Source of the DNA: a virus
Direction: 5' to 3' (one strand)
Length of the DNA: 31,789 bases
IMG/VR virus record: IMGVR_UViG_3300020118_000203
Span: 1-31,789 of that record
Shown here: one piece after another, positions 254-22,758 of the stretch
Layout of the letters: every line of letters begins with the position of its first letter
Position numbering within the stretch: the stretch's first letter is position 1
The notes under the pieces: model-generated
The model's database searches: none
Seen by the model: only the letters and a program-made list of their open reading frames with translations
Told to the model about the DNA's origin: nothing
Made by a program: the position numbers and the translations under genes

Positions 254-478
254 TTAACAGATTGCGGGCATTCCCGGACTGTCTGGAACTATTTGCATAA
301 GGATGGGCTCGTGGAGCTTTGGACAAAGCGTCCAATGCGTCCAGGTGTCTATCGGAATGGTGAATTTTCGGAAGTGAAGGTCGCGGTGATGAGAGCGGCA
401 CCGGGCGCAGCTCTCTATCCCGACGGTGACGTCAGCTTCTTTCGGGATAGATGGTCCGGGGAGTTGTGGTTTTTTCAT
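254..478 (-). CDS. Small Cys/His-containing early protein, unknown function
   Basis: This 74-residue protein has CARC at residues 24-27, a nearby HH pair and a later LCP motif, so metal binding is possible but unproven. Its ATG overlaps the stop of the preceding HTH gene (ATGA), and the next gene starts 4 nt after its TAA. That packing supports a real gene in the leftward early operon. I do not recognise the family. A longer plus-strand open frame across 188-598 is less likely because it breaks the operon. Confidence 0.6.
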   Translation of the reverse strand: MKKPQLPGPSIPKEADVTVGIESCARCRSHHRDLHFRKFTIPIDTWTHWTLCPKLHEPILMQIVPDSPGMPAIC

Positions 479-789
479 GAGACGAATCGCGCCTGTTTAT
501 GGAGTCTGATGGGCTTCATTGTCTTGACCTTCTGGAACTGCTCGGCAAAGGCGGCGAGATCCCGGACCTTGAACTTCCATTGCTTGCCGATCGTGTAGTA
601 CGGCAGACCAATATTCACGAGGATGAGGATCTGCTGTTTGCTCGTCTTCAGGTATCGGGCCGCTTCCTGGGTCGTGAGGAAGTCGTCTGAGGCATAGAGC
701 GGTTTCGAAAGCCGATCGGCGAGGAGGCCGAGGTTCGATTCGACTTTTTCGAGGAGCTCGATAACTCTTCTCTCTCCTTGGGGACTCAT
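475..789 (-). CDS. Excisionase-like HTH DNA-binding protein
   Basis: The 104-residue protein has an HTH_17 / excisionase-type core at about residues 38-83: an LTTQEAARYLKTS helix, then a second helix and the wing GLPYYTIGKQWKFKVRDLAAF. Proteins of this type bind DNA as recombination directionality factors or small MerR-like regulators. The N-terminal 35 residues look like a coiled coil (LLEKVESNLGLLADRL). The ATG overlaps the upstream stop (ATGA). A functional integrase and attP in the same genome make an Xis role plausible. A purely regulatory role is the alternative. Confidence 0.7.
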   Translation of the reverse strand: MSPQGERRVIELLEKVESNLGLLADRLSKPLYASDDFLTTQEAARYLKTSKQQILILVNIGLPYYTIGKQWKFKVRDLAAFAEQFQKVKTMKPIRLHKQARFVS

Positions 790-2022: not shown

Positions 2023-2711
2023 GATCCCTGCGATTATATTCAATGCTTGCACTGATCAATGCCATCGGTCTACTTGGTTGTGGGAGTGATACGGTGATGA
2101 TCAAGCAATATTCTTTGAATTCTCAGAAGCATATAACCCCGGGAGAGGCTCTGATGGAATGGGGTTACTACTTGTCGCACCGCGCTACGCACGTGGTCGA
2201 TGGAGGTATCCGAAAACAACTCTTGTATGGGGGCGTCGATCATGGCACTCTCCAGATAAGTTATCGCGAATTCTCGCTCGCTCAGGCCGGCGAGTTCGCC
2301 AGAGCTCCTTTCTATCAGGATTTGAAATATGATCTCGCTTCCTCGTCGATCATCGCATTTCAAGACATACGAATTGCGATCGATTCTGCCGACCAGCAAG
2401 GCCTACTCTTCAGAGTGCTGAAAGGACCGAGCGAGACGTTCGAAGCCACTCCGCTCGATTTGGGGGCAGATATCTCCGGAATGATTATCGGAACCGGCTA
2501 CGAAGTGAAGGGAGTCAGAACCGGCAGCGCCGCCTTTGCGGCGAAGATCCAGATTGGCGATACATTAGTCAGCATATCCGATACTCCTATTTTGGGTAAG
2601 AAGGTCGATGAGATCCAAGATTTGCTTTGGGGAGATCCCGATACCTCCGCAGAGATAAAACTGTCCAGGGCAGGAAAAGAAGTGAATCTATACATCCAGC
2701 GCCATCGATGA
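2019..2711 (+). CDS. Lipoprotein with C-terminal PDZ domain in lysogeny operon
   Basis: The 230-residue protein starts with a short basic n-region, a hydrophobic stretch and a lipobox LLGC (Cys21), so it should be exported and lipidated. Residues about 155-228 match a PDZ domain: VKGVRTGSAAFAAKIQIGD, then TLVSISDTPI, a helix and a final SRAGKEVNLYI strand. The middle (25-150) is not recognised. There is no protease or peptidoglycan hydrolase domain. The ATG overlaps the repressor stop (ATGA) and its stop overlaps the integrase start, so it is expressed with lysogeny functions. Superinfection exclusion or lysogenic conversion is an inference from position and export, as for the lipoprotein Ltp in the lysogeny module of Streptococcus phage TP-J34. 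Confidence 0.8.
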   Translation: MRSLRLYSMLALINAIGLLGCGSDTVMIKQYSLNSQKHITPGEALMEWGYYLSHRATHVVDGGIRKQLLYGGVDHGTLQISYREFSLAQAGEFARAPFYQDLKYDLASSSIIAFQDIRIAIDSADQQGLLFRVLKGPSETFEATPLDLGADISGMIIGTGYEVKGVRTGSAAFAAKIQIGDTLVSISDTPILGKKVDEIQDLLWGDPDTSAEIKLSRAGKEVNLYIQRHR

Positions 2712-3715
2712 GCACCCTCCGCCGCCGCAAGAACGGCTACTTCTTCATCGACATCCGGACCGAGGGGGCGAGGAAGCGGATCTCACTCGATACCAAGGAT
2801 CGGCGGACCGCCAAGGCGAAGGCAAATATCATCGAGCGGGATCTCACGGGCGGCGAACCGGTATCCCGGGCGACACTCGATGACTTTAAGCTCGAATTCG
2901 AGCTCTACTCAAAAGCCCGGAAGGCGCCGAGCACGACGAAGGCCGAACGCTACGCGCTCAATAAGCTCTCCAAGTTCATCCGGATGCGGTATCTCGATCA
3001 GATCACACCAAAGATGGCGGATGCGTTCGTAACTGCGATCGCGCGGGAAAAGAAGAAAGATAAGACGCTCACCCCCGGCGCCGTCAATTTCTACATCCGG
3101 ACCTTGAAGGCGATCTTCACCACGGCTCACAAATGGGGCTACGTCGACCGGAATCCGTTCGTGGGAGTGAAGGCAATCCGCTTCGAGCGATCGATGCCGA
3201 GGATCCTCACACTCGGGGAAATCGCATCGGTCTTTGAAGCGGCGAAGAGAATCGAACCTGCGATGGTGCCTTTGATCGAATTTTATCTCTTGACGGGGAT
3301 GCGGAGAAACGAGACGTTGAATCTGGAATGGACGGATGTGGACCTTGCGAGGAACGTACTGACTTTGCGGAACACGAAGGGGAAACGGGCGAGGACCGTG
3401 CCCATGGCGCCGAGGGTGAAGATGATCCTGGACTCGAGGCGCGAGCTCGCCAGGCCTTTCCTATTCCGACCGAGCACCGTCAGCCACAAGTTTACTCTCA
3501 TCGCCCAGGAGGCCGGGATCCCGGACATCTCACTTCATGATCTTAGGCGGTCCTTCACGAGCTACGCCCAGGATATCGGGATGCCGGCGATGTTCCTCCC
3601 CTGGTTAATCGGACACACGGAAGAGCAGACGACCCAGCAGCACTATACGGGGTTTTACGATGAGATGATCGCGCAATACTTCATGAAGCTCGAAGCGAAG
3701 ATCTTCCCCAATTGA
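2708..3715 (+). CDS. int: Tyrosine-family phage integrase
   Basis: The 335-residue protein (start ATG 2708, overlapping the lipoprotein stop as ATGA) has the three parts of a lambda-type integrase: an N-terminal arm-binding region (about 1-60), a SAM-like core-binding domain (about 55-150) and a catalytic domain. The active-site set is complete: Arg199 in TGMRRNE, a basic beta-hairpin with NTKGKR near 222-227, His277 and Arg280 in LHDLRR, His303 in IGH, and nucleophile Tyr313 in HYTGFY. It should join attP at 5147-5377 to a tRNA-Leu gene. Genes of unknown function separate it from attP by about 1.4 kb. Confidence 0.96.
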   Translation: MSTLRRRKNGYFFIDIRTEGARKRISLDTKDRRTAKAKANIIERDLTGGEPVSRATLDDFKLEFELYSKARKAPSTTKAERYALNKLSKFIRMRYLDQITPKMADAFVTAIAREKKKDKTLTPGAVNFYIRTLKAIFTTAHKWGYVDRNPFVGVKAIRFERSMPRILTLGEIASVFEAAKRIEPAMVPLIEFYLLTGMRRNETLNLEWTDVDLARNVLTLRNTKGKRARTVPMAPRVKMILDSRRELARPFLFRPSTVSHKFTLIAQEAGIPDISLHDLRRSFTSYAQDIGMPAMFLPWLIGHTEEQTTQQHYTGFYDEMIAQYFMKLEAKIFPN

Positions 3716-4191
3716 GCTTTTTTCCCTCCTTGACCTTATTCGAAATCATCCAGGCGGCATTGGGAGCCGCGACTGCGGTCTTCGCCGCGGTCCTCGTTAG
3801 GGCGACGTTTGTGCTCGCGAGAGTCACCAGGGCCATGGACGAGCACGAGATGCAAAGACGGCGCGAGCAAGACCTTCGCAACTGCATCCAATTCGCACAA
3901 ACAATCCTGAGTCCCGGAGCTGACGCCGGTTCACCAATGGGTGATCTCTTTACCAGCAAGCCCGTTCAACCATACAACGATCTCCTATCGCTCGGCAAAT
4001 ATTTTCATGATGTCGATACTAAGCGCCAGCTCGAAGTATTAACATCGCGTTTGACCGCCGCTCTCGTGCGCGGCGGCAACCCATTTTTAGGCGATAAGGC
4101 ATTGACCGATGCTCGATTGAAGCTTCGCGAGCGGCTTGTCCAGGAGATTGTCGAATGGCAGAGGGACTTGGGAAATTATCAGCGCTCTTAA
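3712..4191 (+). CDS. Membrane-anchored protein of unknown function
   Basis: The start is TTG at 3712, overlapping the integrase stop (TTGA), a coupling also seen at two other junctions in this genome. The 159-residue protein has one N-terminal transmembrane segment (about residues 9-36, AALGAATAVFAAVLV) followed by a charged, mostly helical cytoplasmic region with DEHEMQRRREQDLRNCIQFAQTI and a C-terminal helix. I do not recognise the family. Its place behind int suggests cargo expressed in the lysogen, possibly with the next small gene. Confidence 0.6.
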   Translation: MSFFPSLTLFEIIQAALGAATAVFAAVLVRATFVLARVTRAMDEHEMQRRREQDLRNCIQFAQTILSPGADAGSPMGDLFTSKPVQPYNDLLSLGKYFHDVDTKRQLEVLTSRLTAALVRGGNPFLGDKALTDARLKLRERLVQEIVEWQRDLGNYQRS

Positions 4192-4229
4192 AAAGGCTGG
4201 GGCCTTTACGTCAACAGGAGAGGATCGGC

Positions 4230-4493
4230 ATGGCAGATGAAACCCTAACGCTCAATCCAACTTCTCGGGATGCAGCTTTAATATATATTCTGGCAGAGGC
4301 CAGGACAGCGAATTCCCTACTTGCATTAATTTTAGGCCACATCGGCAACAAATCCTTCCAAGAAGTCGACGCCACGCTGATCGGGATGAGGCTTGAAGAA
4401 TTGAAGCACGTATTTTCGATTCTGTCAAAAACACCCGGCTTTGACGCAGATCGCTGGCGGAAAGCTCTGGGATCGAACGGAGGCCCGACCTAA
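4230..4493 (+). CDS. Small helical protein, unknown function
   Basis: The chosen start is ATG 4230, preceded by the strong Shine-Dalgarno run AGGAGAGGA (4216-4224). An upstream ATG at 4155 would overlap the previous gene by 37 nt and has no such site. The 87 residues are largely helical with a moderately hydrophobic middle (ANSLLALILGHIG). No domain is recognised. It is the last rightward gene and converges with the DUF2513-like gene; the 40 nt between them show no clear terminator. Confidence 0.55.
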   Translation: MADETLTLNPTSRDAALIYILAEARTANSLLALILGHIGNKSFQEVDATLIGMRLEELKHVFSILSKTPGFDADRWRKALGSNGGPT

Positions 4494-4535
4494 GAAGCTG
4501 ATCCCGAAACGGCGTCGCGCTGGTTTGGCGATCAG

Positions 4536-4859
4536 TCATTTCGTGGTCGGAGGAATTCGAGGAGTTTTATCGAAATAGGATCTGACGTCCTGGATCCCGA
4601 TTTTCTCCATGCCTTCCCTTACAATCTGCTTGAGCGAAAAGTATGATAGCGGAAACTGAGCCTTCTCATGTCGATCGAGACACCGGCTCCAGGTTTCGTC
4701 GTCGAGGATGTCGGCCGCGAAACTTCTTCCTTCATCGGTGAGCGTCACCAGGCCCGCTTCCTTCAATAAGCGCAAATGCAGGCCCAGTACATGATCCGGT
4801 TCTCTGGGCGAATCGAGATCCAGCAACAGACTCCGGAGGAGGTTAAAGTCGCGCTTCAT
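4536..4859 (-). CDS. DUF2513-like protein
   Basis: The 107-residue protein begins MKRDFNLLRSLLLDLD and continues with LHLRLLKEAGLVTLTDEG...SFAADIL, matching the DUF2513 pattern: an N-terminal helix, then a winged-helix-like HLxLLxEAGL segment and a Gly-Phe/Ser turn. Members occur in phages and mobile elements and have no established role; a DNA-binding fold is likely. The ATG (4859) overlaps the upstream stop as TGATG; a TTG directly upstream at 4862 is an alternative start. It forms a two-gene leftward unit with the next gene. Confidence 0.7.
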   Translation of the reverse strand: MKRDFNLLRSLLLDLDSPREPDHVLGLHLRLLKEAGLVTLTDEGRSFAADILDDETWSRCLDRHEKAQFPLSYFSLKQIVREGMEKIGIQDVRSYFDKTPRIPPTTK

Positions 4860-5155
4860 CAATCGATTTCTCGATCCACTTCTGGAAGCACGAGCTGCTT
4901 ACCGCGAAAATCGTGTGTGCAATCAGTCTGATAGATGATCACCCCATTGGTGACATAGAAATGGCAGGTTTGCTCCGGGCTCTCAAACGGCGTCTTTGTC
5001 ACTTTCACTGAGGGCTGAAATGACGGGGCATCGACGCTGCCGTTGAAGGTCCAACGTTCGTCTACCCAATGAAGAAATCCGCACGCCGGGCAATGAAAAC
5101 TCCAGCCGAGATGCTTCCCCTCCCTCACAACTTCCATTACTTTTCGTGTGCCCAT
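4859..5155 (-). CDS. DUF6527-like small Zn-binding phage protein
   Basis: The protein shows the linear pattern of a small phage family often mislabelled 'ammonia monooxygenase' (DUF6527): GWSFHCPACGFLHW (CxxC at 22/25), WTFNGSVDAPSFQPSV (35-50), CHFYVTNG (64-71) and DCTHDFRGKQLVLP (78-91). Cys and His residues suggest one bound zinc. The molecular role is unknown. The start is uncertain: ATG 5155 gives 98 residues and ATG 5182 gives 107; neither has a good ribosome site. The 5155 start codon lies inside one integrase arm-type repeat, so binding at attP could affect expression. Confidence 0.7.
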   Translation of the reverse strand: MGTRKVMEVVREGKHLGWSFHCPACGFLHWVDERWTFNGSVDAPSFQPSVKVTKTPFESPEQTCHFYVTNGVIIYQTDCTHDFRGKQLVLPEVDREID

Positions 5156-5165
5156 ATTGTGCCCA
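5147..5165 (+). repeat. Left integrase arm-type repeats
   Basis: TGTGCCCAT at 5147-5155 and TGTGCCCA at 5158-5165 are direct repeats one helical turn apart. The same pair recurs on the far side of the core. They overlap the possible start of the DUF6527-like gene. Confidence 0.75.
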
Positions 5166-5255
5166 CGTGACTCCGGAGGCATTCAGACCGGTACGGAGAA
5201 GGACATAAAATTATCGAATCGGCTCAAAATTCGCATGCGGGGCAGTTCCCATCAC

Positions 5256-5312
5256 GATTCAGGGTCTAGTGCCGGCAACGGCGTACAGGTTCAAGTCCTG
5301 CTCCGGGCACCA
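5256..5312 (+). other. attP core: 3' half of tRNA-Leu(CAG)
   Basis: From the anticodon loop TTCAGGG (5258-5264, anticodon CAG) the sequence follows a class II tRNA: 3' anticodon strand TCTAG, long variable arm with GCCG/CGGC stem, T-arm CAGG-TTCAAGT-CCTG, acceptor strand TCCGGGC and ACCA (5309-5312). Upstream of the loop only two of the five anticodon-stem pairs adjacent to it and one outer pair can form, and no 5' acceptor or D-arm exists, so it is not a working tRNA gene. On integration it would restore the 3' end of the host gene, whose 5' acceptor strand should read GCCCGGA. The crossover is probably in the anticodon stem-loop. Confidence 0.85.
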
Positions 5313-5330
5313 AAAAAGGCCACTTTTGAC

Positions 5331-5344
5331 GTGATAAAAATCAC
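5331..5344. repeat. Perfect inverted repeat in attP
   Basis: GTGAT-AAAA-ATCAC is a perfect 5-bp dyad between the core and the right arm sites. It could bind Xis, an IHF-like protein or another factor. It lacks a T-run and is short for a terminator. Confidence 0.4.
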
Positions 5345-5357
5345 GGCTCGCCGCGAG

Positions 5358-5377
5358 TGTGCCCATAGTGTGCCCAT
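5358..5377 (+). repeat. Right integrase arm-type repeats
   Basis: TGTGCCCAT occurs at 5358-5366 and 5369-5377, 11 bp apart, in the same orientation and spacing as the left pair. The pair starts 45 bp past the tRNA-derived core. Confidence 0.75.
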
Positions 5378-21801: not shown

Positions 21802-22758
21802 TTAGGTCAGCGCGATCGATACGTGATCGTCGCCCGTATTCTGATTGAACTGGAGCGGGACTTTGTAGGTGAGAAGTCCTTTCCGGTCCTGATAGGAGGC
21901 GTCAAGGTACTGGGCCCCGGGGAACGTGAACGTGACAATATTGCCGGCGGTGGCTCCGACCGTGATCCCGATCGTGCCCTGGGCGCCCGTCATGACCTTA
22001 TCCCAGAAGGCGTGATCAGCGACCGCGGCGACTTCAGGATCGCAGGACCCTTCAGGAGCCCGGTTGGTGATGATGAAGCCGAGGAGCGCGTTCGGGGAAT
22101 TCGCATCCTCGCGGGGGGTGACGGTGTTTTTGAGCATGTACTCGAAATTCGCGATCACGCCCGCGAAGCCGAGCATCGAGAAGTTGGCCGACTGCAGGAT
22201 CTCCGGGATCTGCGCGAGATAGGTCTGGGTCGGGAAGGAAGCATCGGTCGGCGTCGCATACTCGCCTGAGAAGGTGAACTCCCAGTAGCCGAGCTTTCCG
22301 GCGGCCAGGGTGAGCTTGAAATCACCCAGGGCGCCTTTAACCACGTGCTTCACCCCGTCCATGAAGCACTGGATCGTGCAGGATTTGCCGGGCCCGAAGA
22401 ACGACGAGCTCGCCGGGGCGGAGGTCGGCGCATAGGTGACGCTCGTAGCGGCGACGACGGTTTCTGTGAAGCCGCAGGCCTGGATCGCGGCCGAGAAGGG
22501 CGCATAGGCCGTGCCGGCGGTGCCAGAGCCTTTTACCTCGGTTCTGAAAGTCACCTGGACATACTTTGTGCCCATGACATGGGGCAGCGTGTCGATCGTG
22601 CTCCGCTTCGGCTCGCGCTTGAGGAGCTCGGGGATCGGCTTGATATCGAGAGCTTCCACGAGCATGAAATCGGTCGCGGTGAGAGTGGCGGCGGTGCCCT
22701 GAGTGGTCTCGGTCTTGATACCGAGCACCATTTTGTGGGAAAGTTTTGGCGAGCTCAT
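21802..22758 (-). CDS. Major tail (tube) protein
   Basis: The 318-residue protein is beta-rich with a pattern typical of siphovirus tail tube proteins: an N-terminal TETTQGTAATLTATDFMLVEA strand pair (16-36), FRTEVKGSGTAGTAYAPFSAAIQACGF, a hydrophobic GALGDFKLTLAAGKLGYWEFTFSG barrel section and a C-terminal YLDASYQDRKGLLTYKVPLQFN region. ATG 22758 is preceded by GAGGAG and overlaps the stop of the 55-residue gene upstream (ATGA). A strong terminator follows, as expected for a highly expressed tube subunit. Confidence 0.85.
   Translation of the reverse strand: MSSPKLSHKMVLGIKTETTQGTAATLTATDFMLVEALDIKPIPELLKREPKRSTIDTLPHVMGTKYVQVTFRTEVKGSGTAGTAYAPFSAAIQACGFTETVVAATSVTYAPTSAPASSSFFGPGKSCTIQCFMDGVKHVVKGALGDFKLTLAAGKLGYWEFTFSGEYATPTDASFPTQTYLAQIPEILQSANFSMLGFAGVIANFEYMLKNTVTPREDANSPNALLGFIITNRAPEGSCDPEVAAVADHAFWDKVMTGAQGTIGITVGATAGNIVTFTFPGAQYLDASYQDRKGLLTYKVPLQFNQNTGDDHVSIALT

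Follow-up and report, generated by a model that had tools for sequence, protein, structure and literature searches.

Why should the 3' half of a tRNA-Leu(CAG) gene lie between phage genes, framed on either side by a pair of identical octamers? We examined this locus in a 31,789-bp stretch of viral DNA (the window), which is the whole of its IMG/VR record, linear and without end repeats. The initial annotation had read it as an intact phage attachment site (attP) in which a tRNA-Leu(CAG) core stands between paired arm sites. We conclude with high confidence that a temperate tailed phage has its attP here, at positions 5147-5376, and that its tyrosine integrase (Int) is of the lambda type, the parts given below to binding, crossover and the recombination directionality factor (RDF) being those expected of the class. 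The features that bear on this reading are given here, where L026 is an independent relative, IMGVR_UViG_3300013232_000207.

475 to 789, minus strand: candidate excisionase (RDF), a helix-turn-helix (HTH) protein, with weak matches to phrog_66 (excisionase and transcriptional regulator; E 2.5e-5) and phrog_25665 (excisionase; E 7e-4)
1636 to 2022: HTH repressor-like gene, left of attP
2708 to 3715, plus strand: tyrosine integrase gene int (phrog_1 integrase, E 3.4e-56; Phage_integrase, E 4e-18)
3712 to 5182: four small open reading frames (ORFs) in the int-attP interval, from the ORF list (3712-4191 and 4155-4493, plus strand; 4536-4862 and 4859-5182, minus strand)
5147 to 5154, plus strand: putative arm-type site P1, an exact TGTGCCCA repeat, kept in L026
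5158 to 5165, plus strand: putative arm-type site P2, an exact TGTGCCCA repeat, TGCGCCCA in L026
5166 to 5200, plus strand: CGGAGGCATTC..TACGGAGA stretch of degenerate 10-bp repeats, kept in L026, a candidate excisionase (Xis)/RDF or accessory site
5258 to 5312, plus strand: attP core, tRNA-Leu(CAG) nt 32-76, from the anticodon loop to CCA, by sequence; the L026 counterpart is identical at 46/55 positions
5330 to 5345, plus strand: inverted repeat CGTGA-N6-TCACG, at core+18 in the window and core+17 in L026
5358 to 5365, plus strand: putative arm-type site P'1, an exact TGTGCCCA repeat, kept in L026
5369 to 5376, plus strand: putative arm-type site P'2, an exact TGTGCCCA repeat, kept in L026

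The four exact octamers at the site form two pairs, each with a start-to-start spacing of 11 bp, that stand 211 bp apart; three of the four extend to TGTGCCCAT, the exception being the copy at 5158, where the next base is C. A fifth exact copy lies at 22567, and chance predicts 0.31 copies per window, with a maximum of 2 in 100 shuffles. Using a layout scan for an identical 8-mer pair with a fixed period of 9-13 bp that occurs twice within 60-400 bp, we found one case in the window and none in 200 first-order Markov sequences. When one mismatch is allowed, the octamer occurs 15 times against 15.65 expected, which is not unusual, so the signal lies in the exact copies and in their layout. Exact positions, chance counts and the Markov control agree that the paired TGTGCCCA repeats with identical 11-bp spacing, as first described by eye, are real.

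Between the two TGTGCCCA pairs lies the 55-bp core (TTCAGGGTCTAG...CTCCGGGCACCA), which contains the anticodon CAG, the 3' strand of the anticodon stem, a long variable arm (CCGG-CAAC-GGC) and the T arm, and which ends with the acceptor strand TCCGGGC, the discriminator A and CCA. From this 3' strand the 5' acceptor strand predicted for the host gene can be read directly as GCCCGGA, just as had been proposed. ARAGORN and Rfam detected neither a complete tRNA nor a 5' half in the window. The top pair of the T stem, A49-C65, is a mismatch; the complete tRNA-Leu(CAG) of another record (MT835977, L062) has the same bases at 49 and 65, so the mismatch need not be a defect. That record gives the best match to the core in the phage collection and was rejected as a second example of the site, as it has the complete tRNA and no TGTGCCCA arms. 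Compared with plasmids and named phages, the core shows generic tRNA-Leu similarity only.

L026, one of 57 TGTGCCCA-N3-TGTGCCCA loci in IMG/VR, encodes an Int that is 47% identical to the window Int over 333 residues. Directly after its int gene come, in this order, TGTGCCCA/TGCGCCCA, a tRNA-Leu(CAG) 3' half and TGTGCCCA/TGTGCCCA. Both phages have 92 bp between left arms and core; the right spacing is 45 bp in the window and 43 bp in L026, and the arm-to-arm span is 230 and 228 bp, respectively. After P2, the L026 counterpart of the CGGAGGCATTC..TACGGAGA stretch consists of three 10-bp repeats, CATTCGGAG/CATTCGGAG/CATACGGAG. This repetition of arms, core, spacing and order beside a related integrase strongly supports the reading of the locus as an attP whose tRNA-Leu(CAG) core is framed by paired arm sites. 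L026 differs from the window in that attP abuts int, P2 is TGCGCCCA, the core departs in its anticodon stem and variable arm, and the neighbouring genes are others. Since the other L026 genes tested have no matches in common with window genes, what the two phages have in common appears to be an integration module and not the genome as a whole. A search for further close Int relatives with back-translated peptides returned L026 as the only close one; the comparison of attP is with this single relative. A scan for CCGGGCACCA-N30-60-TGTGCCCA gave 32 loci, among which L026 is the only attP, the rest being chance or unrelated occurrences, and the single match to TGTGCCCATANTGTGCCCA (L002) has no integrase or tRNA nearby. 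The inverted repeat CGTGA-N6-TCACG, which the window and L026 both carry between the core and the right arms, could serve a host or phage accessory factor.

The window int probably starts at 2708, where the L026 Int begins to align (M28 of the longest ORF); the N-terminal arm-binding domain of the window Int matches Pfam Arm-DNA-bind_2 at E 0.13 only. The gene is not adjacent to attP but 1.4 kb away, separated from it by the four small ORFs, the last of which (4859-5182, minus strand) matches DUF6527/phrog_3362. Because the L026 int ends approximately 10 bp from the first arm and these ORFs are absent there, they are probably cargo. On the other side of int, between it and the repressor-like gene, 2019-2711 encodes a lipoprotein-like protein with a C-terminal PDZ domain, a candidate lysogenic conversion gene.

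The locus is an ordinary attP of a known class, that of tRNA-targeting tyrosine integrases of the anticodon-loop type: a tyrosine integrase is encoded in the same element, the core is the 3' part of a tRNA, running from anticodon loop to CCA, and has no 5' half, paired direct-repeat arms that are kept in a relative stand on both sides of it, and phage genes flank it left and right. Lambda, too, has a tyrosine integrase, an excisionase and an attP that combines arm-type and core-type sites, but the core is intergenic rather than in a tRNA gene, and the arm sites are unevenly arranged and follow a different consensus. Closest in plan is the attP of Cluster J mycobacteriophages (Omega, BAKA), which lies downstream of a tyrosine integrase gene and has a 44-bp core equal to the 3' half of a tRNA-Leu, with its left end in the anticodon loop, such that the tRNA is restored on integration; pairs of direct repeats of about 10 bp (P1/P2 and P3/P4) stand on either side (PMC3706429). 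The window shares with it the tRNA-Leu core starting in the anticodon loop, the paired arms on both sides and the upstream int. It differs in the arm consensus (TGCATACg/tPuPy in Cluster J, TGTGCCCA in the window; PMC3706429), in the isoacceptor (CAA in Cluster J, CAG in the window) and in the four small ORFs that split int from attP.

By analogy with the class, the N-terminal domain of Int would bind the TGTGCCCA arms, P1-P2 on the left and P'1-P'2 on the right, and its catalytic domain would work on the core. The strands would probably be exchanged within the anticodon loop or beside it, at about 5258-5264, because the tRNA match begins there in both the window and L026. A functional site that instead crosses over near the tRNA 3' end, as at the tRNA-Leu used by NBU1 (PMC10865867), is an unlikely variant; the genome collection yielded no attB, attL or attR to place the crossover, but in the window and L026 alike the tRNA match extends as far as the anticodon loop and ends there, the left limit expected for anticodon-loop exchange, and Cluster J phages show the same limit (PMC3706429). 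With exchange at the anticodon loop, a phage integrating into the host tRNA-Leu(CAG) gene would substitute its own copy for the 3' half of that gene, leaving the lysogen a complete tRNA. Excision would require an RDF, plausibly the HTH protein encoded at 475-789, perhaps bound at the 10-bp-repeat region beside P2.

To the right of attP we identified a holin-like gene followed by tail, major capsid, portal and terminase large subunit genes, and the resulting order of terminase, portal, capsid, tail, lysis, attP, int and repressor is that of a lambda-like virion. Since both flanks are phage DNA in this order, the sequenced molecule had attP and not attL or attR. An unintegrated genome, as the initial annotation had it, is the most likely reading of these flanks, with the qualification that the record is a linear fragment without end repeats. 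That same property would suit an assembly across the attL and attR of tandem or collapsed prophages, whose junction looks like an attP; we find this very improbable, since we recognized no host-like genes among those of the window, and its genes keep the lambda-like virion order. It is highly improbable that the tRNA 3' half is a decayed phage tRNA relic and the TGTGCCCA pairs regulatory, for example operators for the divergent ORF 4859-5182, at whose 5' end the left pair lies, since L026 has arms, core and spacing beside int without this ORF, and TGTGCCCA pairs are enriched beside integrases and flank the 3' halves of other tRNAs.

The core predicts a host tRNA-Leu(CAG) gene as the target, but the exact host target that had been expected was not found in the genome collection. 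The proposed search with the core named no host: neither the exact 55-mer nor a version relaxed to R/Y at 49 and 65 matched an attB in the genome collection, a search that would miss mismatched or unsequenced hosts. The same two versions likewise found no attL or attR in the genome collection.

We also compared the site with other phages that carry paired TGTGCCCA repeats. In two of the loci, L052, which is Gordonia phage Dardanus, and L053, which by similarity is Gordonia phage Schmidt, TGTGCCCA-N3-TGTGCCCA pairs about 218 bp apart flank tRNA 3'-end sequence, as in the window; unlike the window, they use another tRNA, and the core is oriented opposite to the arms. The Schmidt integrase is approximately 22% identical to the window Int. 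Dardanus gene 35, annotated as 'tyrosine integrase', has 62 codons and contains the left arm pair, and the Dardanus integrase may be truncated beside a kept attP-like site.

In tRNA-dependent lysogeny, a short core does not restore the tRNA and the phage carries a tRNA of the same isotype (PMC10865867). The window does not follow this plan, as its 55-bp core reaches CCA and no tRNA gene was found in this incomplete record. Two other loci resemble it, with an integrase of the Arm-DNA-bind_3 type: L011 (1234-1545) and L022 (9569-9880, minus strand) have attP-like sites with two TGTGCCCA pairs 218 bp apart and a short core, ACTTTTAATC, equal to the anticodon loop of tRNA-Lys. A complete tRNA-Lys(TTT) follows directly after the right pair, with int at the opposite side; beyond these, L022 has ORFs that are tail- and amidase-like. 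Direct repeats with a 10-bp period just inside the left arm pair are clear in L026, L011 and L022 and degenerate in the window; a possible role for them is as an RDF/Xis filament site.

One point of wider interest is that the TGTGCCCA repeat recurs in many unrelated phages. The 57 IMG/VR loci with TGTGCCCA-N3-TGTGCCCA compare with 6 for the reversed control ACCCGTGT-N3-ACCCGTGT in the same collection. A tyrosine integrase lies within 300 bp at 19 of the 57 loci (5.2 by random placement, at most 13 in 2000 placements) and within 700 bp at 23 (7.2 by random placement, at most 16 in 2000), counts that are approximate as the integrases were found by a profile built from the 57 loci themselves; none of the six control loci has an integrase. 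At nine further loci, the window not counted, a second pair with at most 3 of its 16 positions mismatched flanks a T-loop-like motif of a tRNA 3' half, although about 6% of random positions (144/2320) have a second pair in range by chance, so that individual weak cases could be accidental. By eye, the cores at the other two-pair loci include 3' halves of tRNA-Ser, tRNA-Ala and tRNA-Val. The integrases near TGTGCCCA pairs are very diverse, mostly 20-28% identical to the window Int, and their arm-binding domains match Arm-DNA-bind_2 in L021 and L055, Arm-DNA-bind_3 in L022 and, weakly, Arm-DNA-bind_4 in L053 and L012. We tentatively suggest that TGTGCCCA-N3-TGTGCCCA could be a widely shared arm-type address, read by integrases of the Arm-DNA-bind_2, _3 and _4 families that target different tRNAs. 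We found no paper describing TGTGCCCA, GTGCCCA or TGGGCAC as an arm site in a search that much subscription literature lay outside, and we make no claim of first discovery.

The window site predicts a host tRNA-Leu(CAG) gene and is otherwise a new and clear-cut case of a familiar kind. Its practical use is a motif, paired TGTGCCCA repeats at 11 bp, which marks attP in uncultured phage genomes without knowledge of the host. If the idea of a shared address is true, arm recognition would be conserved while core specificity changes, and the motif alone would suffice to locate attP in raw metagenomic phage DNA. If the motif is indeed common to divergent arm-binding domains, it would offer a way to test how the specificities of arm and core evolve apart from each other.
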